Positions 13,727 to 43,539 of a stretch of 64,000 nt of DNA are shown one piece after another. The DNA is from Pseudomonas sp. 2FG. Lineage in GTDB: Bacteria > Pseudomonadota > Gammaproteobacteria > Pseudomonadales > Pseudomonadaceae. Numbering within the stretch: position 1 is the stretch's first letter; every line of letters begins with the position of its first letter. The translations under genes and the position numbers were made by a program. The DNA is taken from the NCBI RefSeq assembly GCF_005502935.1, contig NZ_SCMP01000013.1, positions 62,001 through 126,000 of the forward strand, written 5' to 3'. The notes below the pieces were generated by a model. The model did not search any database. It saw only the letters and a list, made by a program, of their open reading frames with translations, and had not been told where the DNA came from.

Positions 13727-14908
13727 ATGCAAGAAGTCGTTATAGTCGCCGCCACCCGTACCGCCGTCGGCAGTTTTCAGGGCTCGCTGGCGGGCATTCC
13801 TGCCGTCGATCTGGGGGCGGCGGTGATCCGCAGCCTGCTCGAGCAGACCGGCCTGAATGGCGCGCAAGTGGACGAAGTGATCTTCGGCCAGGTGCTGACC
13901 GCCGGCGCCGGACAAAACCCGGCACGCCAGGCCGCGATCAAGGCCGGGCTACTCCATGCGGTGCCGGCGCTGACGCTGAACAAGGTCTGTGGCTCCGGCC
14001 TCAAGGCCCTGCACCTGGGCGCCCAGGCGATCCGCTGCGGCGACGCCGAGGTGATCATCGCCGGCGGCCAGGAGAACATGAGCCTCTCCGCCTACGTCAT
14101 GCCGGGCGCCCGCACCGGCCTGCGCATGGGCCACGCGCAGGTCATCGACACCATGATCAGCGACGGCCTGTGGGATGCCTTCAACGACTACCATATGGGC
14201 ATCACCGCGGAGAACCTGGTGGACAAGTACGGCATCAGCCGTGAGGCCCAGGACGCCTTCGCCGCCGCCTCGCAGCAGAAGGCCGTGGCCGCCATCGAAG
14301 GCGGGCGCTTCGCCGAGGAAATCACCCCGATCCTGATTCCGCAGCGCAAGGGCGAGCCCCTGGCCTTCGCCACCGACGAACAGCCGCGCGCCGGCACCAC
14401 GACCGAGGCCCTGGGCAAGCTCAAGCCGGCGTTCAAGCAGGACGGCAGCGTCACCGCCGGCAACGCCTCCAGCCTCAACGACGGCGCCGCCGCCGTGCTG
14501 CTGATGAGCGCCGCCAAAGCCAAAGCCCTCGGTTTGCCGGTGCTGGCGCGCATCGCCGCTTACGCCAATGCCGGCGTCGACCCGGCGATCATGGGCATCG
14601 GCCCGGTCTCGGCGACCCAGCGCTGCCTGGCAAAGGCCGGCTGGACGCTGGAGCAGCTGGACCTGATCGAAGCCAACGAGGCCTTCGCCGCCCAGGCCCT
14701 GGCGGTCGGCAAAGAACTCGGCTGGGAGGCCAGCAAGGTCAACGTCAACGGCGGCGCCATCGCCCTCGGCCACCCCATCGGCGCCTCCGGCTGCCGGGTG
14801 CTGGTGACCCTGCTGCACGAGATGATCAAGCGCGATGCCAAGAAAGGCCTGGCCACCCTGTGCATCGGCGGCGGTCAGGGCGTGGCGCTGGCCATCGCCC
14901 GCGACTGA
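13727..14908 (+). CDS. atoB: acetyl-CoA C-acetyltransferase (thiolase)
   Basis: This 393-residue biosynthetic-type thiolase would cleave acetoacetyl-CoA with CoA to two acetyl-CoA, or run in reverse. The acyl-accepting cysteine is Cys88 in [16 protein letters not shown]. The other catalytic blocks, [17 protein letters not shown] and the C-terminal CIGGGQGVA with the general-base Cys, are intact. It is the third gene of the CoA-transferase operon and is followed by a good terminator. AtoB is the natural partner for acetoacetyl-CoA made by AacS or DhcAB. Confidence 0.93.
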
Positions 14909-14964
14909 CCTAAGGCACTCCCACCTGCCATCCAACCCCGCTCGTGGGGTTCGGAAAGAAGTCG

Positions 14965-15000
14965 ACGCCACGCCTATTCGATGGGCGTGGCGTTTTCGTT
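14965..15000 (+). terminator. rho-independent terminator after atoB
   Basis: The stem ACGCCACGCC/GGCGTGGCGT has a short loop and is followed by TTTCGTTTTC. It separates atoB (+) from the convergent liuE (-). Confidence 0.8.
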
Positions 15001-15084
15001 TTCTAGCGGTGGAAGGGCCTGCGGGGGCAGGCGTACAGACGGGCGCCGCGGTGCCGGAGACTGCGGTCAAGGATATGCCCGCGC

Positions 15085-15993
15085 TTAGGCGGGCGTCCGT
15101 ACCAGGCGGGCGCGGGCCACCCGCGAACCGTTCTCCTTGCCGAGCACCGCGCAGATGCGCTGGCCGGCGGCGATCAGCTTGTCCAGGTCGACGCCGGTCT
15201 CGATCCCCAGGCCATTGAGCATGTAGAGCACATCCTCGCTGGCCACATTGCCGCTGGCGCCCTTGGCGTAGGGGCAGCCGCCGAGGCCGGCGACCGAGCT
15301 GTCGAATACCTTGATGCCCTCCAGCAGGCTGGCGTAGATATTCGCCAGGGCCTGGCCGTAGGTGTCGTGGAAGTGCCCGGCGAGTTTCTCGCGGGGTATC
15401 TCGCGGCCGACCATCTCGAATAGCCGGCGGGTGGCACTCGGCGTGCCGGTGCCGATGGTGTCGCCGAGGGACACTTCGTAGCAGCCCATGGCGAACAGCT
15501 CCTTGGCCACGCTGGCGACCTGCTGCGGCGCGACGTCGCCTTCATAGGGGCAGCCGAGCACGCAGGACACGTAACCACGCACGCTGATGCCGTGCTGTTT
15601 CGCCGCGGCCATCACCGGTACGAAGCGCTCGAGGCTTTCGTTGATCGAGCAGTTGATATTGCGCAGGGAGAAGGCTTCGGTGGCGGCGGCGAACACCGCA
15701 ACCTCCTTGACTCCGGCCTCGACAGCGGCTTCGAAGCCCTTGAAGTTGGGCGTCAGCGCGGCATAGGTCACGCCGGCCTTGCGCTGGATCTGGGCGAAGA
15801 CTTCGGCCGAGCCAGCCATCTGCGGCACCCACTTCGGCGATACGAAGCTGCCGGCCTCGATGTAGCTGAGGCCGGTGGCGGACAGTTCATCCACCAGCCG
15901 GACCTTATCCGCCACGCTGATGGGTTGGGCCTCGTTTTGCAGGCCATCGCGCGGGCCGACTTCGACCAGACGGACGTGTTTGGGAATCGCCAT
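15085..15993 (-). CDS. liuE: hydroxymethylglutaryl-CoA lyase
   Basis: This 302-residue TIM-barrel HMG-CoA lyase (gnyL in other nomenclature) splits 3-hydroxy-3-methylglutaryl-CoA into acetyl-CoA and acetoacetate, the last step of leucine degradation. Family motifs: VEVGPRDGLQNE at the N-terminus, HFHDTYGQALANI with metal-binding His residues, and the active-site signature SVAGLGGCPYAKGASGNVASEDV with its catalytic Cys. The ATG at 15993 was chosen because AAAGGTGAAGCA precedes it and it gives the usual length; the open frame continues upstream into an intergenic repeat. It is the last gene of the liu operon, and its product acetoacetate feeds aacS/dhcAB next door. Confidence 0.94.
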   Translation of the reverse strand: MAIPKHVRLVEVGPRDGLQNEAQPISVADKVRLVDELSATGLSYIEAGSFVSPKWVPQMAGSAEVFAQIQRKAGVTYAALTPNFKGFEAAVEAGVKEVAVFAAATEAFSLRNINCSINESLERFVPVMAAAKQHGISVRGYVSCVLGCPYEGDVAPQQVASVAKELFAMGCYEVSLGDTIGTGTPSATRRLFEMVGREIPREKLAGHFHDTYGQALANIYASLLEGIKVFDSSVAGLGGCPYAKGASGNVASEDVLYMLNGLGIETGVDLDKLIAAGQRICAVLGKENGSRVARARLVRTPA

Positions 15994-16007
15994 TGCTTCA
16001 CCTTTAC

Positions 16008-16102
16008 GTAGGGTGGATGACGCTTTATCCATCCACCTGTGTTGTCTTGTCATGCCCACCACCGGACTGGTGGAAAACCGCTGCGCGGGTTTTCCACCCT
16101 AC
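16008..16102. repeat. GTAGGGTGG-type paired-hairpin repeat between liuD and liuE
   Basis: GTAGGGTGG at 16008 and CCACCCTAC ending at 16102 are outer inverted arms. Inside are two hairpins, GGTGGATG/CATCCACC and GGTGGAAAACCGC/GCGGGTTTTCCACC. The right arm contains the liuD stop codon (TAG on the minus strand, 16099-16101). It is a diverged member of the repeat family found at 18853, 20525 and 43429. Confidence 0.75.
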
Positions 16103-18045
16103 GCCTCTTCCAGCTCTACCAGTACGGTGCCTTCGCTGACCATTTCGCCTTCGCTGCAGTACAGCGCCTTGACGATGCTAGCCTGTGGCGCGCGGATGCT
16201 GTGCTCCATCTTCATCGCCTCCAGCACCACCAGGGCGGTACCGGCCTCGACGTGCTGACCGGCTTCGACCAGGACCCGCACGATACTGCCGTTCATGGGG
16301 GCGGTCAGCCCGCCATGCTGGTGATGGCTGGCTTCGACCTCGGCGATCGGGTCGAAGTACTGCACCGCCCGCAGTTCGCCTTGCCACTGCAGATAAAGCC
16401 TAGGGCCCTGGCGGATCGCCAGGTGTTGGCTGCGCGTGCCGTTGTGCTCGACGACCAAGCGTTCGCCGCGCAGTTGCACGGCGCTGTCGCTGCCTGTGCT
16501 GCGCAGGCGCACGACTTGCTGCTCGCCGGCGCAGGTCAGGTGCAGATCGGTTTCAGTCGGCAAGCCGGCGCGCCAGCCGGTGGAAACGGCCCAGGAGGAA
16601 TGCCGGTCATCCTCGCGCTGGCGCGCCGGTTCGCTTAGGGCTAAGGCGTGCGCGGCCAGTTGCCAGAACTCGGCGGGCAGGGCGCTGGCTGGCGGCAGCA
16701 ATTGCTCCTGGTAGCGCGGGATAAAACCGGTATCCAGTTCGGCGGCGGCGAACGCCGGATGGGCGAGTACGCGCCGCAGGAACGCCAGGTTGGTTCTCAC
16801 CCCACCGACGGCGGTTTCACCGAGCATCGCCAGCAGGCGCTGACGGGCTTCCTCGCGGGTCTCGCCCCAGGCGATCAGCTTGCCGAGCATCGGATCGTAG
16901 AACGGCGACACCGTATCGCCTTGTTCTACGCCGCTGTCTACGCGGCGGCCAGGGCCGGCAGCGGACTCACGGTAAAGCGCGAGGGTGCCGGTGGCGGGCA
17001 GGAAGTCGTTGTCCGGATCTTCGGCATACAGGCGCACTTCGATGGCGTGGCCAATCAGCGGCACCTCGGCCTGGGTCAGGGGCAGCGGTTCGCCACGGGC
17101 CACGCGAATCTGCCAGGCGACCAGGTCGAGGCCGGTAATCGCCTCGGTGACCGGGTGCTCGACCTGCAGGCGGGTGTTCATCTCCATGAAGAAGAAGTCG
17201 CCACGCTCGTCCAGCAGGAACTCCACGGTGCCGGCGCCGACATAGCCGATGGCCTGGGCGGCGCGTACCGCCGACTCGCCCATGGCCTTGCGCAGTTCCG
17301 GGCTGAGGCCGGGGGCCGGCGCCTCTTCGACCACCTTCTGGTGGCGGCGCTGGATCGAGCAGTCGCGCTCGTTGAGGTACAGGCAGTTGCCGTGCTGGTC
17401 GGCGAACACCTGGATTTCGACGTGGCGCGGCTTCAACACATACTTTTCGACCAGCATCCGCGAATCGCCAAACGACGACTGTGCTTCACGCTGGGCCGAG
17501 GCCAGTGCCTCCGCCAGCTCGGCTTCGCGCTCGACCACCTTCATGCCTTTGCCACCACCACCGGCGGCGGCCTTGAGCAGTACCGGGTAGCCGATGCGTT
17601 CGGAAGCGACGCGGAAGGTCTCCAGGTCCTGCGCTTCGCCGTGATAACCCGGCACCAGCGGTATGCCGGCTTCTTCCATCAGCGCCTTGGCGGCGGATTT
17701 GCTGCCCATGGCGTCGATGGCGCTGGCCGGTGGGCCGAGAAACAGCAGGCCGGCGTTCTCGATGGCGCGGGCGAAGCCGGCGTTCTCGGAGAGGAAGCCA
17801 TAGCCCGGGTGAATCGCCTGGGCGCCGGTGGCCTTCGCGGCGGCGATCAGTTTATCCACCAGCAGGTAGCTCTCCGCCGGTTTGGCGCCGCCAAGATCGA
17901 CCGCGATATCCGCCTCGCGCACATGGCGGGCGTTGCGGTCGATGGCGCTGTGGACGGCCACGGTGGTGATCCCCAGGGCCTTGGCCGTGCGCATCACCCG
18001 GCAAGCGATCTCGCCACGGTTGGCAATCAATAAGGTGCTAATCAT
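16099..18045 (-). CDS. liuD: methylcrotonyl-CoA carboxylase, biotin-containing alpha subunit
   Basis: The 648-residue subunit (gnyA) carries biotin carboxylase and the biotin carrier. It begins TLLIANRGEIACRV, shows the ATP-grasp loop KAAAGGGGKGMKVV and the FMEMNTRLQVEHPVTE active-site block, and ends with the biotinylation site VVLEAMKMEHS, whose Lys between the two Met residues accepts biotin. With LiuB it carboxylates 3-methylcrotonyl-CoA to 3-methylglutaconyl-CoA in leucine catabolism. Start ATG 18045 overlaps the liuC stop (ATGA), so translation is coupled. The stop codon comes from an intergenic repeat. Confidence 0.94.
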   Translation of the reverse strand: MISTLLIANRGEIACRVMRTAKALGITTVAVHSAIDRNARHVREADIAVDLGGAKPAESYLLVDKLIAAAKATGAQAIHPGYGFLSENAGFARAIENAGLLFLGPPASAIDAMGSKSAAKALMEEAGIPLVPGYHGEAQDLETFRVASERIGYPVLLKAAAGGGGKGMKVVEREAELAEALASAQREAQSSFGDSRMLVEKYVLKPRHVEIQVFADQHGNCLYLNERDCSIQRRHQKVVEEAPAPGLSPELRKAMGESAVRAAQAIGYVGAGTVEFLLDERGDFFFMEMNTRLQVEHPVTEAITGLDLVAWQIRVARGEPLPLTQAEVPLIGHAIEVRLYAEDPDNDFLPATGTLALYRESAAGPGRRVDSGVEQGDTVSPFYDPMLGKLIAWGETREEARQRLLAMLGETAVGGVRTNLAFLRRVLAHPAFAAAELDTGFIPRYQEQLLPPASALPAEFWQLAAHALALSEPARQREDDRHSSWAVSTGWRAGLPTETDLHLTCAGEQQVVRLRSTGSDSAVQLRGERLVVEHNGTRSQHLAIRQGPRLYLQWQGELRAVQYFDPIAEVEASHHQHGGLTAPMNGSIVRVLVEAGQHVEAGTALVVLEAMKMEHSIRAPQASIVKALYCSEGEMVSEGTVLVELEEA

Positions 18046-18842
18046 GCTTCGGGCTCCTGCCAGGCGGGTTTGCGCTTGTCGAGGAAGGCGCGCAGGCCTT
18101 CTTGCCCCTCGGGGCTGACGCGGATGCGGGCGATGGCGTTTTCGGTATAGCGGCGCAGGGCCGGGGTCAGCACGCCGCTGCCGACTTCCTGGAGCAGGGT
18201 CTTGCTGACCTGCATGGCCTGCGGGCTGTTGAGCAGCAAGTTGTCGACCCAATTGCTTAGGGCTCGATCCAGCTCCCCCGACGCGTAGCACTCGGCGAGC
18301 AGGCCCAGTTGTTGGGCCCGTTCACCGCTGAAACGCTCGGCGGTCAGCGCATATCGCCGTGTCGCGCGCTCGCCAATCGCCTGCACCACGAAGGGGCTGA
18401 TCACCGCCGGGGCCAGGCCGATGCGCACTTCGGACAGGCAGAACTGCGCATCGCTCGCGCCAATCGCCATGTCGCAGCAACTGATCAGCCCCAGTGCGCC
18501 ACCAAAGGCGGCGCCTTGCACCACGGCCAGGGTCGGCAGCTTGAGGTGGTAGAGGTTGTGCATCAGCTCGGCCAGTTCGCGCGAGTCATTCAGGTTGGCG
18601 TTGTAGTCGAGGGTCGCCGAGTGCTGCATCCAGGCCAGGTCGGCCCCTGCGGAAAAGTGCTGGCCGCGGCCACGCAGCAGCAGGAAACGCAGGCTGCGGT
18701 CGGCCTGGACGGCATCCAGGGCGAGGATCAGCTCGCGGATCATCTCGGCGTTGAAGGCGTTGTTCTTCTCCGGGCGATTGAGCCACAGCGTGGCAATGCC
18801 GCGCGGATCTTTTTCCAGTTGTACGGTGGTGAAGTCGGTCAT
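18042..18842 (-). CDS. liuC: 3-methylglutaconyl-CoA hydratase (crotonase family)
   Basis: This 266-residue enoyl-CoA hydratase-fold protein (gnyH) would hydrate 3-methylglutaconyl-CoA to HMG-CoA. The oxyanion-hole blocks are visible: GRGQHFSAGADLAWMQ and LPTLAVVQGAAFGGALGLISCCD. Two ATGs are close together (18848 and 18842). The second is preferred because AGGA lies six bases before it, against two or so for the first. The gene overlaps liuD by four bases. Upstream is a perfect inverted-repeat element that separates it from liuB. Confidence 0.92.
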   Translation of the reverse strand: MTDFTTVQLEKDPRGIATLWLNRPEKNNAFNAEMIRELILALDAVQADRSLRFLLLRGRGQHFSAGADLAWMQHSATLDYNANLNDSRELAELMHNLYHLKLPTLAVVQGAAFGGALGLISCCDMAIGASDAQFCLSEVRIGLAPAVISPFVVQAIGERATRRYALTAERFSGERAQQLGLLAECYASGELDRALSNWVDNLLLNSPQAMQVSKTLLQEVGSGVLTPALRRYTENAIARIRVSPEGQEGLRAFLDKRKPAWQEPEA

Positions 18843-18852
18843 GGTCATTCCT

Positions 18853-18909
18853 GTAGGGTGCGCTGTGCGCACCGATACGTTGAACATTGGTGCGCGCGGC
18901 GCACCCTAC
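18853..18909. repeat. GTAGGGTGCGC inverted repeat between liuB and liuC
   Basis: Two 21-bp arms (18853-18873 and 18889-18909) begin and end with GTAGGGTGCGC/GCGCACCCTAC and form a strong hairpin with a 15-bp loop and one internal mismatch. The liuB stop codon (minus-strand TAG, 18906-18908) lies in the right arm. Confidence 0.9.
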
Positions 18910-20513
18910 ATGCGAAAGACGCCAAAGGTGGTCGGCTCGATAGGGGCATTCAGGGACGCGGACAGTGCCAGCGCCAGCACCTCGCGGGTTTGCGCCGGGT
19001 CGATCACGCCGTCATCCCAGAGCCGCGCGCTGGAGTAGTAGGGGTGGCCCTGGTGCTCGTACTGTTCGAGGATCGGCTGTTTGATCTTCGCTTCATCCTC
19101 GGCGCTGAGGCTGTGGCCGCTGCGTTCCGCTTGTTCGCGTTTGACCTGCGCCAGTACCCCGGCGGCCTGTTCGCCGCCCATTACGCCGATTCGCGCGTTC
19201 GGCCACATCCACAGGAAGCGCGGATCGTAGGCGCGACCACACATCCCGTAGTTGCCCGCGCCGAAACTGCCGCCGATGATCACGGTGAACTTCGGCACCC
19301 TGGCGCAGGCCACCGCGGTTACCAGTTTGGCGCCGTGCTTGGCGATGCCGCCGGCTTCGTACTTCTGCCCGACCATAAAGCCGGTGATGTTCTGCAGGAA
19401 CAGCAGCGGAATGCCGCGCTGGCAGGCCAGTTCGATGAAGTGCGCGCCTTTCTGCGCGGACTCGGCGAACAAGATCCCGTTATTGGCGATGATCGCTAGC
19501 GGATAGCCCTGGATATGCGCAAAGCCGCAGACCAGGGTGGCGCCGAACAGCGCCTTGAACTCATCGAATTCGGAGCCGTCGACCAGCCGCGCTATCACCT
19601 CGCGCACATCGAAGGGGTGTTTGGCGTCGGCCGGGATCACGCCGTACAGTTCATCGCCGGCATACAGCGGCAGGCGTGGCGTGCGGCTATGCAGTTGGCC
19701 TTGTTTGCGCCAGTTCAGGTTGCCGATGCAACGGCGGGCGAGGGCCAGCGCATGCTCGTCGTTCTCGGCGTAGTGGTCGGCGACCCCGCTGGTCTTGCAG
19801 TGCACATCGGCACCGCCGAGGTCTTCGGCGCTGACCACTTCACCGGTGGCGGCCCGCACCAGCGGCGGGCCGGCGAGGAAGATCGTGGCCTGGTTGCGAA
19901 CCATGATGGTTTCGTCGGACATGGCCGGCACATAGGCGCCGCCGGCGGTGCAGGAACCCATCACCACCGCAATTTGGGGAATCCCCATGGCGCTCATATT
20001 GGCCTGGTTGAAGAAGATTCGGCCGAAGTGTTCGCGGTCCGGAAACACCTCGTCCTGGCGCGGCAGGTTGGCGCCGCCGGAGTCGACCAGGTAGATGCAT
20101 GGCAGGCGGTTTTCCCGGGCTATGGTCTGCGCGCGCAGGTGCTTCTTCACCGTCAGCGGGTAGTAGCTGCCGCCTTTGACCGTGGCGTCGTTGGCCAGGA
20201 TCATGCACTCGATGCCTTCGACACGACCGATCCCGGCGATCACGCCGGCGGCCGGCACGTCCTCGCCATACACCTCGTGGGCGGCCAGCTGGCCGACTTC
20301 CAGGAAGGGCGAGCCGGGGTCGAGCAGGCGATTGATCCGTTCCCGCGGCAGCAGTTTGCCGCGCGAGCGGTGCCGCTCCTGCGCCTTGGCGCCGCCGCCT
20401 TCGTGGACGCGGCCGAGCAGGGCACGCAGGTCGTCGACCTGCTTGAGCATGGCCGCGTTATTGGCGGCGAACTCCGGCGTGCGGGTATTGATCTGGGTGT
20501 TGAGGATGGCCAT
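18906..20513 (-). CDS. liuB: methylcrotonyl-CoA carboxylase, carboxyltransferase beta subunit
   Basis: This 535-residue biotin-dependent carboxyltransferase (gnyB) transfers CO2 from carboxybiotin on LiuD to 3-methylcrotonyl-CoA. It has the two crotonase-like halves of the family: [17 protein letters not shown] in the first, and [17 protein letters not shown] plus [19 protein letters not shown] in the second, the acyl-CoA and biotin sites. Length matches MCC-beta (about 535). It lies between liuA and liuC, with repeat elements on both sides. Its last codon is ATG and its stop is supplied by the downstream repeat. Confidence 0.94.
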
Positions 20514-20524
20514 GGGAAGTCCCT

Positions 20525-20579
20525 GTAGGGTGCGCCGCGCGCACCATCATGTTTGCCCGGTGCGCATGGCGCACCCTAC
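20525..20579. repeat. GTAGGGTGCGC inverted repeat between liuA and liuB
   Basis: Arms at 20525-20545 and 20559-20579 are inverted copies (20 of 21 bases complementary) with a 13-bp loop. It is the same family as 18853-18909 and lies in the 69-bp spacer between liuA and liuB. Confidence 0.9.
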
Positions 20580-20582
20580 GGG

Positions 20583-21746
20583 TTACTTGGTCTCGTTGAA
20601 CAGCTCGCGCCCAATCAACATGCGGCGGATTTCGCTGGTGCCGGCGCCGATTTCGTAGAGCTTGGCGTCGCGCAGCAGGCGGCCGGTGGGGAACTCGTTG
20701 ATGTAGCCGTTGCCGCCGAGGATCTGGATCGCATCCAGGGCCATCTGCGTGGCGCGCTCGGCGCTGTAGAGGATGACCCCGGCGGCGTCCTTGCGGGTGG
20801 TTTCGCCACGGTCGCAGGCATTCGCCACGGCATACAGGTAGGCGCGGCTGGCGTTGAGCTGGGTATACATGTCGGCGACCTTGCCCTGGATCAGCTGGAA
20901 CTCGCCGATGCTCTGGCCGAACTGCTTGCGGTCGTGGATGTAGGGCAGCACGACGTCCATGCAGGCCTGCATGATCCCGATGGGGCCGCCGGAGAGCACC
21001 ACACGCTCGTAGTCCAGGCCGCTCATCAGCACCTTCACGCCGCCGTTGAGCACGCCGAGGATGTTTTCTTCCGGCACTTCGACGTCATCGAAGAACAGTT
21101 CGCAGGTGTTCGAGCCGCGCATACCGAGCTTGTCGAACTTGCTGCTACGGGAGAAACCTTTCCAGTCGCGCTCGACGATGAACGCGGTGATGCCCTGCGG
21201 GCCTTTCTCCAGGTCGGTCTTGGCGTAGATCACATAGGTGTTGGCGTCCGGGCCGTTGGTGATCCAGGTCTTGCTGCCGTTGAGGACGAAGTGCTCGCCC
21301 TTGCGGTCGGCGCGCAGTTTCATCGATACCACATCGGAGCCGGCATTCGGCTCGCTCATCGCCAGGGCGCCGATATGCTCGCCGGAGACCAGCTTGGGGA
21401 GGTATTTGGCTTTCTGCTCGGCAGTGCCGTTGCGGTTGATCTGGTTGACGCAGAGGTTGGAGTGGGCGCCGTAGGAGAGGCCGACCGAGGCCGAACCACG
21501 GCTGATCTCTTCCAGTGCGACCACGTGCGCCAGGTAACCGAGGCCCGAGCCGCCGTATTCCTCCGGGACTGTGATGCCGAGCAGGCCCATGTCGCCGAAC
21601 TTCTTCCACATGTCAGCCGGGAAGAGGTTGTCGCTGTCGATGGCGGCAGCACGCGGGGCGAGTTCAGCGGCAACGAAGGCTTGAACCTGGTCGCGCAGCA
21701 TGTCGATGGTTTCGCCGAGGGCGAAGTTGAGGGACGGATAGCTCAT
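20583..21746 (-). CDS. liuA: isovaleryl-CoA dehydrogenase
   Basis: This 387-residue acyl-CoA dehydrogenase (gnyD) would oxidise isovaleryl-CoA to 3-methylcrotonyl-CoA with FAD, passing electrons to ETF. The FAD-binding core [20 protein letters not shown] and [19 protein letters not shown], the segment [20 protein letters not shown], and the C-terminal [20 protein letters not shown] and [16 protein letters not shown] are intact. Position as the first enzyme gene after liuR and the length support isovaleryl specificity. It starts 29 bp after the liuR stop. Confidence 0.93.
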
Positions 21747-21775
21747 GGTTCCACCTATGATCTTTATGATTAGGT

Positions 21776-22174
21776 TTAAACGGTAAGGTCTTGTTGTTTA
21801 AGCGTTTCGGCGAGTGCGATATGGCAGCGTTCCTCGGCCGTATCCAGCTCCAGCTGCATCTGCTGGATATCTAGCAGTTGCTGTTCAAGCTGCGCGCGGC
21901 GCTCGGTGATCTTGCGCATAAAGGTTTCCAACTGCTTGCGATTGCCGCCGCTCGGGTCGTACAGCTCGATCAGCTCACGGCATTCGGCGAGGGAAAAGCC
22001 GATGCGCTTGCCGCGCAGAATCAGCTTCAGGGAAACCTTGTCGCGTGCCGAATAGATGCGTTCCTGGCCACGCCGCTCCGGCGTGAGCATGCCTTGCTCT
22101 TCATAGAAGCGGATGGCACGGGTAGTGATATCCAGTTCGCGGGCAAGGTCGGAAATGCTGTAGGTCGTAGACAT
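21776..22174 (-). CDS. liuR: MerR-family regulator of leucine/isovalerate catabolism
   Basis: The 132-residue regulator (gnyR) has an N-terminal MerR helix-turn-helix ([26 protein letters not shown], then [24 protein letters not shown]) and a C-terminal coiled coil ([22 protein letters not shown]) for dimerisation. It lacks a cysteine-rich metal site; the effector is expected to be an acyl-CoA, as for LiuR. It is the first gene of the operon. A perfect palindrome 27 bp upstream is its probable operator, giving autoregulation and control of liuABCDE. Confidence 0.93.
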
Positions 22175-22200
22175 GGATGAGTGCTCGCAATGCGTTTACC

Positions 22201-22216
22201 TTTACGTTAACGTAAA
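22201..22216. promoter_or_regulatory. LiuR operator palindrome
   Basis: TTTACGTTAACGTAAA is a perfect 16-bp palindrome upstream of liuR. A TTGACA -35 element on the minus strand (22232-22237 on +) places the palindrome over the spacer and -10 region, the normal MerR-family arrangement. The motif agrees with what is known of LiuR sites. Confidence 0.8.
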
Positions 22217-22376
22217 GCTACAAGGCAGGGCTGTCAATAACCGAACGCTGTGCACGGCCTTTACTGTCAGCGGGTCTAGGTGTAGACATTTTACAGCGTG
22301 CGCGTTTTGTCATCGGCCACCCTAGCCCAGCCAGTCGATCGGGGCGGTGTTGATGCAAACCCAGCCGGAGTGAGAG

Positions 22377-24287
22377 ATGAGCCAATCATTTTCAACAAAA
22401 ATAATAAGCACCGACCCGCTGCATGAGTCCCGACTGGTTCGGGAGAAACTGATTGTCGATGGGCAGTTGCCGCAAGGTCTGCTGCGTGACGAAATCGATG
22501 CGTCCTGGCGGCGCAGTATCGGCCATGGCCTGAGCTGCATCGATGAAGAAGCGATCGGTTTGCACCTGAGCAATGACCTCGCGTTATTGCTGGCGCAGAA
22601 CCGCGTGCTGATCGATGCCGCCACCCCCGAGCTGGACTACCTGATCGCCCAGCAAGGTAAAGGCGGGCTGATCGTTCTCGGCAATGCCGATGCGACTGTG
22701 CTGGCCGTCGAGGGGCAAACCGAATACCTCAAGGCCTTCGAGCTACGCGACCTGGCGCCGGGCAACTGCTGGAGTGAAGCGCTGCGGGGCACCAATGCCC
22801 TGGGCACGGCCGTGGTGGAAGGCCGGCCGACCCTGATCAACTGTGGCGAGCACTACCTGGATCGCTTGAGCCGGTTCTCCTGCACCTCGGTGCCGATCAA
22901 GAATCCACTGGGCCAAGTCATAGGAGTCATCGATCTGACTCGCGAAGGCGTGTTGACCCAGCCGCAGGACAGCCTCGCGACCTTGATGCTGGTGGCCAGC
23001 AATATCGAGGGCCGGCTATTCGGCGCTTTTTATCCCGAGCAGATCATTCTGGCGTTCCACAGCCGCCAGCAATACTTGGGGTCCGCCTGGCACGGCCTGT
23101 TGGCGCTGAGCCTGGATGGTGAAGTGCTGGCGGCCAACCAGCAGGCCTGCGATCTGCTGAAACTGCCGAGGGCGAGCCTGCTCGGGCGTCGTTGCCAGGA
23201 CTTTCTCGGCGGCCGTAGCGGCCAGTTCATCTCCCGTCTGTTGCAGGGCGCGGTCAGCAGCGTGCAAACCGCCAGCGGCGAGTTCTTCTTCAAGGCGCTG
23301 CAGGTTCCGCGCTGCGCCGCCATGGCCACGCCTGCGGCCGCACCGAAAGCCGCCGCGCCGAAACGCCTGCTGCTGGAAGAGCTGGCCGGTAGCAACAGCC
23401 GCTTCGCCCGCTCGTTGCGCATGGCCCAACAAGGTCTGGCGGGCGGCCTGCCGGTGTTGCTGCTGGGCGAAACCGGCACCGGTAAGGAAGTGGTCGCCCG
23501 GGCGTTGCATCAGGCCAGCGTGCGTGCCGATAAACCTTTCGTCGCAGTGAACTGCGCGGCGATTCCCGAAGGCTTGATCGAGTCGGAACTGTTCGGCTAC
23601 CGCGAGGGGGCGTTCACCGGCTCACGCAAGGGCGGCATGCTCGGGCGCCTGTTGCAGGCCAATGGCGGCACGCTGTTTCTCGATGAAATCGGCGATATGC
23701 CCTTGAGCCTGCAAGCCCGCCTGTTGCGTGTGCTCCAGGAGCGCAAGGTGGCGCCTTTGGGCGCCGGCGAGGAGCAGGACATCGACGTGGCGGTGATTTG
23801 CGCCACCCACCGCGACCTGAAGCAGCTGGTGCAGGACAAGAGCTTCCGCGAAGACCTCTATTACCGAGTCAACGGTGTGAGCCTGCGGCTGCCGGCGCTG
23901 CGCGAGCGGGACGACATCGACGGCTTGATCGCCACTGTGCTGAACAAGCTGGGCGCCAGCCATATAAGCATCGACCAGGAACTTGGGGAACTGCTCGCCC
24001 ACTACGATTGGCCGGGCAATATCCGCCAGCTGGAAATGGTCTTGCGCGCCGCGCTGGCCATGCGTGAAGGGGCGGAAACCGAATTGGGCCTGGAGCACCT
24101 GACCGACAGCCTGCTGGACGATCTGACCGCCAGTTGCCGGCAACCCTGCGGGCGTATCCGTGAGAACGAACTGGAGCTGATTCGCAGCTCCCTCGACCGG
24201 CACCACGGCAATGTGTCCGCCGCGGCCGACTCCCTAGGCATCAGCCGCGCGACCCTGTATCGCAAGCTGAAGCAGTTCCGCGCATAG
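22377..24287 (+). CDS. sigma-54-dependent transcriptional activator (AcoR-like, GAF-AAA-Fis)
   Basis: This 636-residue bacterial enhancer-binding protein has an N-terminal GAF-type sensor (about residues 70-225), a linker with PAS-like features ([22 protein letters not shown]), the AAA+ domain, and a C-terminal Fis-type helix-turn-helix ([20 protein letters not shown]). Walker A is GETGTGKE at residues 364-371. The sigma-54 contact loop at residues 411-416 reads GAFTGS instead of the usual GAFTGA. No receiver domain is present, so it senses a ligand directly. It lies 62 bp before the qhpF-type gene. A sigma-54 promoter in front of the aldehyde dehydrogenase at 30153-31658 is its most likely local target; this is inference. 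Confidence 0.9.
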
Positions 24288-43385: not shown

Positions 43386-43539
43386 CTAGTGTGCTGTCTC
43401 AGAATTATTGTTTCGATGACACCGGCTCGTAGGGTGCGCCGTGCGCACCAGGCACCCGGTGTCAGTGGTGCGCACGGCGCACCCTACACAGGCCAGCCGC
43501 AGCCGCTTGAGCAATGATTATTGCGAGACAGCACACTAG
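43386..43539. mobile_element. 154-bp MITE-like element with nested inverted repeat
   Basis: CTAGTGTGCTGTCTC (43386-43400) and its exact reverse complement (43525-43539) form 15-bp terminal inverted repeats, with weaker pairing continuing inward through AT-rich ATTATT segments. Between them lies a full GTAGGGTGCGC repeat. No coding capacity exists. Termini, size and lack of genes fit a miniature inverted-repeat transposable element; no transposase is in the window. Confidence 0.65.
43429..43487. repeat. GTAGGGTGCGC inverted repeat nested in the MITE-like element
   Basis: Arms at 43429-43449 and 43467-43487 are 21 bp each and perfectly complementary with a 17-bp loop. It is the fourth copy of the repeat family also seen at 16008, 18853 and 20525. 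Confidence 0.9.

Follow-up and report, generated by a model that had tools for sequence, protein, structure and literature searches.

Probable GTAG-tagged REP doublets in three spacers of the liu operon of Pseudomonas sp. 2FG, two of which contain the stop codon of the upstream gene

The liu operon of Pseudomonas sp. 2FG carries an inverted repeat in three of its intergenic spacers. The operon lies in a stretch of 64,000 nucleotides (assembly GCF_005502935.1, contig NZ_SCMP01000013.1, positions 62,001 to 126,000), hereafter the window, to which coordinates given without a contig refer. The three repeats are very probably doublets of repetitive extragenic palindromic (REP) sequences with a GTAG tag, such as have been called REPINs (REP doublets forming hairpins) or BIMEs (bacterial interspersed mosaic elements), that is, non-autonomous mobile DNA that has settled in the spacers of an operon, as it has at the 3′ ends of other genes of this genome. 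In liuB and liuD, the tag of the element is itself the stop codon, and the proteins have the same ends as those of near relatives. The repeats are new copies of a known element, because GTAG REPs, their dimers, and their supply of TAG stops have already been published, as passages of PMC3733652 document.

Repeat doublets in the liu operon

A preliminary description of this DNA, made from the letters alone, had placed repeats in the liuD/liuE, liuB/liuC, and liuA/liuB spacers. We confirmed them at 16008..16102, 18853..18909, and 20525..20579, respectively. All three begin with GTAGGG and end with CCCTAC, and each consists of two opposed units in which a GTAG tag is followed by a hairpin-forming palindrome that begins with GGTG and ends with CACC. 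The units are of two types. The CGC type, GTAGGGTGCGC...GCGCACC, has the stem GGTGCGC/GCGCACC and makes up the liuA/liuB and liuB/liuC elements; the GG/CC type, GTAGGGTGG...CCACC, has the stem GGTGGA.../...TCCACC and makes up the liuD/liuE element, whose units are GTAGGGTGGATGACGCTTTATCCATCCACC (16008-16037, plus strand) and GTAGGGTGGAAAACCCGCGCAGCGGTTTTCCACC (16069-16102, minus strand).

The stop codons of liuB and liuD had also been said to lie inside the repeat in the same register, and this holds as well: both are the TAG, or amber codon, of the element's GTAG tag, seen as CTA on the plus strand at 18906..18908 for LiuB and at 16099..16101 for LiuD. The TAA stop of LiuA (TTA on the plus strand, 20583-20585) stands 3 nt outside its element.

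All five genes are encoded on the minus strand. They comprise an acyl-CoA dehydrogenase (liuA, 20583..21746; Pfam Acyl-CoA_dh domains), a carboxyltransferase subunit (liuB, 18906..20513; PF01039), a member of the enoyl-CoA hydratase family (liuC, 18042..18842; NF004227, gamma-carboxygeranoyl-CoA hydratase, 510.6 bits against a cut-off of 426), a biotin carboxylase subunit (liuD, 16099..18045; Biotin_carb and BT_MCC_alpha (PF21139) domains), and a hydroxymethylglutaryl-CoA lyase (liuE, 15085..15993; NF004283, 496.5 bits against a cut-off of 246). The domains were identified by profile search, and the names liuA to liuE, taken over from the preliminary description, are those that we assume to apply.

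Genome-wide distribution of the repeats

Searching the 4.23-Mb draft genome gave 65 matches to the exact CGC-type unit and 69 to the GG/CC-type unit, with none for either control, the pattern being reversed in that of the CGC type; a broader REP pattern gave 160 matches versus 5 in its control. We collected 137 matches at no fewer than 83 sites genome-wide, a set that is incomplete in that it holds both subtype lists and four broad-pattern units, with nested duplicates and imperfect units omitted. Because at least 83 sites are spread over the genome, the repeats are not special to liu. At 43 of the 83 sites the units are oriented '+-', with the tags outside, and the others are '-+' (6), '++-' (2), '--' (1), or single (31); three of the '+-' sites are a single palindrome matched once on each strand, so that the true doublets number 40. 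Of the 83 sites, 62 lie between co-directional genes (37 '++' and 25 '--'), 17 between convergent genes, and 3 between divergent ones, and one site lacks a called gene on its left side. The repeats are mainly extragenic, a single site of the 83 falling within a called gene. Within the genus, the AT-preceded CGC unit has a patchy distribution, occurring in 11 of 149 genomes when this one is counted.

In 108 of the 122 outer flanks at the 83 sites, the base before GTAG is C or T. This bias suggests a longer tag, YGTAG, or the trace of a cleavage site. The REP-associated tyrosine transposases (RAYTs) of E. coli and Stenotrophomonas have been reported to cut at CT, according to passages of PMC8266576.

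The window further holds a miniature inverted-repeat transposable element (MITE) of 154 bp at 43386-43539, which has the termini CTAGTGTGCTGTCTC...GAGACAGCACACTAG and a complete CGC-type REP doublet inside. Eight copies, recognized by 15 terminal ends with one copy one-ended, are present in this genome (G000), that of the window and others on contigs C4, C11, C22, C32, and C33. A plasmid search with the REP-carrying MITE gave no match. The same search with the liu region returned 192 records, none of which spanned 80% of the query, and the five matches listed, at 74-77%, are homologous genes or unannotated.

Tags as stop codons

By homology, the elements would be miniature and non-autonomous and would be spread by a RAYT, with GTAG presumably serving, beside each REP hairpin, as the tag for recognition. 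An element arriving at a gene end in the frame xxG-TAG would provide its tag as the stop codon; in either of the other frames, translation would continue through the open REP, and such insertions would presumably be purged. Open reading frames were scored with a codon model for which the window was the training set, and 79 GTAG tags of this genome were found to point toward a gene's 3′ end. The stop codon is exactly the TAG of the tag in 10 of them, and in none of the 79 does the gene enter the tag in another frame. Ten out of ten in the stop frame would have a probability of 1.7e-5 if frames were neutral, the test being post hoc. Parts of two other genomes were analyzed with a second script: among the matches listed, the tag provided the stop in 1 of 46 cases in the relative genome G028 (23 stretches) and in 2 of 13 cases in G133 (17 stretches), with no off-frame case in either. 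When this genome and the covered parts of the other two are taken together, all tags that coincide with a coding frame, 13 of 13, are in the stop frame. Part of the pile-up at distance zero is to be expected, because any element landing in frame close to the end of a gene has its distance reduced to that value.

Alignment with relatives did not bear out an alteration of the C-termini of LiuB and LiuD by the repeats, which we had considered and now reject for these two proteins. The FRM end of LiuB is found in 80 of the 80 relatives fetched, whose stop codons are TAA (38), TGA (31), and TAG (11). LiuD ends in ELEEA, as it does in L031-L034, the four loci with the closest LiuB by identity, where the stop is a TGA outside any repeat; among 26 Pseudomonas and Azotobacter loci this end occurs in 5, all with TGA, and the others vary. 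Compared with their near relatives, both proteins are therefore unchanged, the stop codon alone now being TAG, and the tag lies exactly where close relatives stop.

Altered C-termini were found among the eight other tag-stop genes, which were compared with relatives of at least 58% identity (60 loci, 14 genomes). An enoyl-CoA hydratase encoded outside liu is 3 residues shorter than all five of its relatives, and an AraC-type regulator is shorter than its two relatives by 7 and 9 residues. The AtuA protein (L195:356-2245, G000:C31) is longer than five of five relatives, by 15 residues in four cases and by 9 in one; seven extra residues (GAHGAPY) are encoded by one REP unit, and the end is the TAG of the next unit. 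This AtuA-family gene reads in frame through a complete REP from the tail side before it ends in the next tag. The XdhC protein has the length of none of its 10 relatives (range -8 to +3). Equal lengths were seen for the ANTAR protein in 6 of 11 relatives (four others are one residue shorter and one is two residues longer), for the amidohydrolase in 6 of 14 (range -2 to +11), for the FAA hydrolase in 3 of 6 (range -1 to +1), and for the TetR regulator in 3 of 7 (range -3 to +11).

Transposase and mobility

The genome encodes one RAYT of 178 aa (G000:C33:66486-67022; NF047646, 196.3 bits against a cut-off of 80) and a fragment of a second copy. A genome devoid of the transposase was considered when a search with PF01797, the Pfam profile of IS200-like transposases, gave no match; this was a false negative, as a RAYT query found the gene, for which the Pfam E value is only 0.1. 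The REP pair before the RAYT is of the kinds GTAGGGTGGACAAC... and GTAGGGTGG(A/G)AAAC..., the same half kinds as in the liuD/liuE element, with the tags facing inward. The 5′ part of the RAYT and, with it, the REP pair occur twice in tandem, about 338 bp apart (L205, G000:C33:66486-67522), which accounts for the truncated second copy. In G028, a RAYT (L281, G028:C3:344086-344610) is broken by one in-frame TGA and is flanked by a CGC-type REP, GTAGGGTGCGCCGTGCGCACC. That genome has 125 matches to the CGC-type unit and, elsewhere, two more RAYT-like frames that are unbroken. As far as can be judged from these arrangements, each of the two REP classes is associated with a RAYT, in the case of the CGC class by way of G028 alone.

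Several observations weigh against the interpretation of the liu repeats as mobile elements that have settled at gene ends. The RAYT of this genome adjoins REPs of the GG/CC type, and no RAYT was found beside CGC-type REPs in this genome, the type to which two of the three liu elements belong. Moreover, 16 of the 65 CGC units are carried within another mobile element, the MITE. We infer insertion from a comparison set that holds no empty site from a near-identical strain. Nor is crowding of tags at gene ends general: 18 of the 79 gene-facing tags are more than 100 nt away from the stop codon, and among the matches listed for the other two genomes, tags within 40 nt of a stop number 5 of 46 in G028 and 4 of 13 in G133.

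The liu spacers in relatives

In Azotobacter chroococcum (L050), the TAG of LiuB is supplied by a different tag hairpin, GTAGGAGCGAATTCATTCGC, and in P. chengduensis (L039), LiuD ends in VELEP-TAG within what looks by eye like an imperfect REP. A detector restricted to GTAG tags and relaxed to admit 2-nt loops found tagged hairpins in 2 of 26 liuA/liuB, 4 of 26 liuB/liuC, and 4 of 7 liuD/liuE spacers of the Pseudomonas and Azotobacter loci; shuffles, which keep base composition only, lead one to expect 0.14, 0.10, and 0.09. Other palindromes were seen by eye in the long spacers of L040, L049, and L076, and the spacer is at most 40 nt long in 15 of 26 loci for liuA/liuB and in 16 of 26 for liuB/liuC. 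The liu junctions thus appear to have acquired REPs whose class differs from species to species, and in many cases to have acquired none. Outside liu, the FAA-hydrolase orthologues at L218, L222, and L223 end in GTAGCCCGGAT-type tags, which are of a different GTAG-REP class. By comparison of these sequences, the stop codon of one and the same gene, that of the FAA hydrolase, is supplied by different REPs in different species.

Hairpins at the operon junctions

Strong hairpins in the mRNA had been proposed, and folding agrees: the predicted energies are −40.7 kcal/mol for the liuD/liuE element (z −4.4; folded as 16008-16103), −38.5 kcal/mol for the liuB/liuC element (z −7.2), and −43.0 kcal/mol for the liuA/liuB element (z −7.7), with none of 200 shuffles of each being as stable. 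Base pairing of GUAG with CUAC in the full hairpin places the stop codons of liuB and liuD in the base of the stem; in a single unit folded alone, the tag is unpaired. Each element would thus be present in the mRNA as one long hairpin, which in liuB and liuD would start at the stop codon. The distance between stop codon and hairpin is 0 nt for LiuB and LiuD and 3 nt for LiuA, all within 15 nt, and 0-3 nt separate the far end of each hairpin from a motif of the next gene that resembles a ribosome-binding site by eye, the liuB/liuC element ending directly before the AGGA of liuC. A search of 15000-22400 with Rfam 15 at the gathering score gave no matches.

By E. coli precedent, such hairpins may hinder translation termination, insulate re-initiation, or block 3′ exonucleases, so that effects of the liu doublets on expression are plausible by analogy. 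The positions of the hairpins would suit devices for translation control, in which a REP hairpin no more than 15 nt away from a stop codon would stall the terminating ribosome and lower LiuA, LiuB, and LiuD, or would insulate the next gene from re-initiation as a ribosome termination structure. The distances given above fit this, as do the 37 of 79 gene-facing REP ends in this genome that lie at most 15 nt from a stop (counted from the list; 35 of 79 by the second script). E. coli REPs at such distances are reported to stall ribosomes (PMC12306157, in a passage citing Liang 2015), and hairpins after stop codons are described in a part of PMC7518266 as governing re-initiation. We nonetheless consider it unlikely that translation control is what the repeats are there for, given that more than half of the liuA/liuB and liuB/liuC spacers of the relatives are 40 nt long or less, and that GTAG-tagged hairpins, of several REP types, were found in just a few of them. 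It also seems rather improbable that the doublets serve mainly as 3′-exonuclease barriers which would keep the liu segments before them stable and so adjust the transcript levels relative to one another. Their stability, −38 to −43 kcal/mol, speaks for this, and REPs block exoribonucleases in E. coli according to the same part of PMC12306157, but the spacers of different species differ in length and in REP content, and this speaks against a conserved function.

Least of all can the hairpins be expected to be intrinsic terminators or attenuators between the liu genes, a reading that their very high stability invites and that we regard as highly improbable. No terminator-like site was reported on the minus strand, that of the operon, in 14900-22400; the eight found there are all on the plus strand, where shuffles would lead one to expect 6.1 on both strands together. 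The elements have no U-tract, and we rejected an intrinsic terminator because a GC-rich stem followed by a U-tract was not found on the transcribed strand in this interval. Passages of PMC8871633 report that P. aeruginosa makes two transcripts, liuRABCDE and liuBCDE, and the liuA/liuB junction may therefore also matter for transcription.

If the liu repeats are settled mobile doublets, as we think, a REPIN might be regarded as a transposable translation-junction module that acts in one step. It would bring its own stop codon, position this codon at the base of its hairpin, and end directly before the next ribosome-binding site, so that a single insertion would swap an operon junction for an insulated or stalling one; selection on frame would make such insertions neutral or nearly neutral for the protein while altering expression, and species would retune the same junctions with different REP families. 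We put this forward as a tentative proposal in which our confidence is low. The findings explain why unrelated genes of REP-rich genomes end in TAG followed by identical sequence, and they show that mobile repeats can occupy operon junctions while damaging the proteins little or not at all. The frame test allows selection at gene ends to be quantified in a small way, and the liu junctions, which hold different REPs or none depending on the species, are a natural test bed for effects of intra-operonic REPs on translation and mRNA decay.

Comparison with known systems

A limited search of open-licence papers brought up neither a description of REPs in liu nor a frame test applied to REPs, and the passages of PMC8871633 on liu do not mention REP elements. 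That GTAG termini often provide a TAG stop, there called "opal", was published in 2013 (Di Nocera 2013, PMC3733652). The GTAG REPs described in parts of that paper likewise consist of a GTAG tag and a short palindrome, likewise form head-head dimers with the tags outside, most of them 20-100 bp apart, and are likewise found mostly between co-directional or convergent open reading frames, near 3′ ends. The GTAGGGTGCGC...GCGCACC stem type described here is not matched to one of the 24 families of PMC3733652, at the level of detail seen there.

Among the RAYT-REP classes of Nunvar 2010 (PMC2817692, Table 1), GTAGGGTGGGCTTcAGCCCACC of H. influenzae, together with its t variant, equals the units at C11:218451-218507 of G000, and the P. 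mendocina class GTAGCCCGGATGCAATCCGGG resembles the stop-supplying tag hairpins of L218, L222, and L223; the CGC type is absent from the rows of that table that were viewed. REPINs, as portrayed in passages of Bertels and Rainey 2011 (PMC3116915), are likewise inverted REP doublets with a variable spacer that form a single hairpin and are linked to RAYTs, a likeness that is known here from sequence and not from excision or transposition intermediates. The REPs implicated in translational control in E. coli, as summarized in part of PMC12306157, likewise lie at most 15 nt from a stop codon. Those REPs, however, are downstream of the stop, whereas the tags at liuB and liuD themselves include the stop codon.

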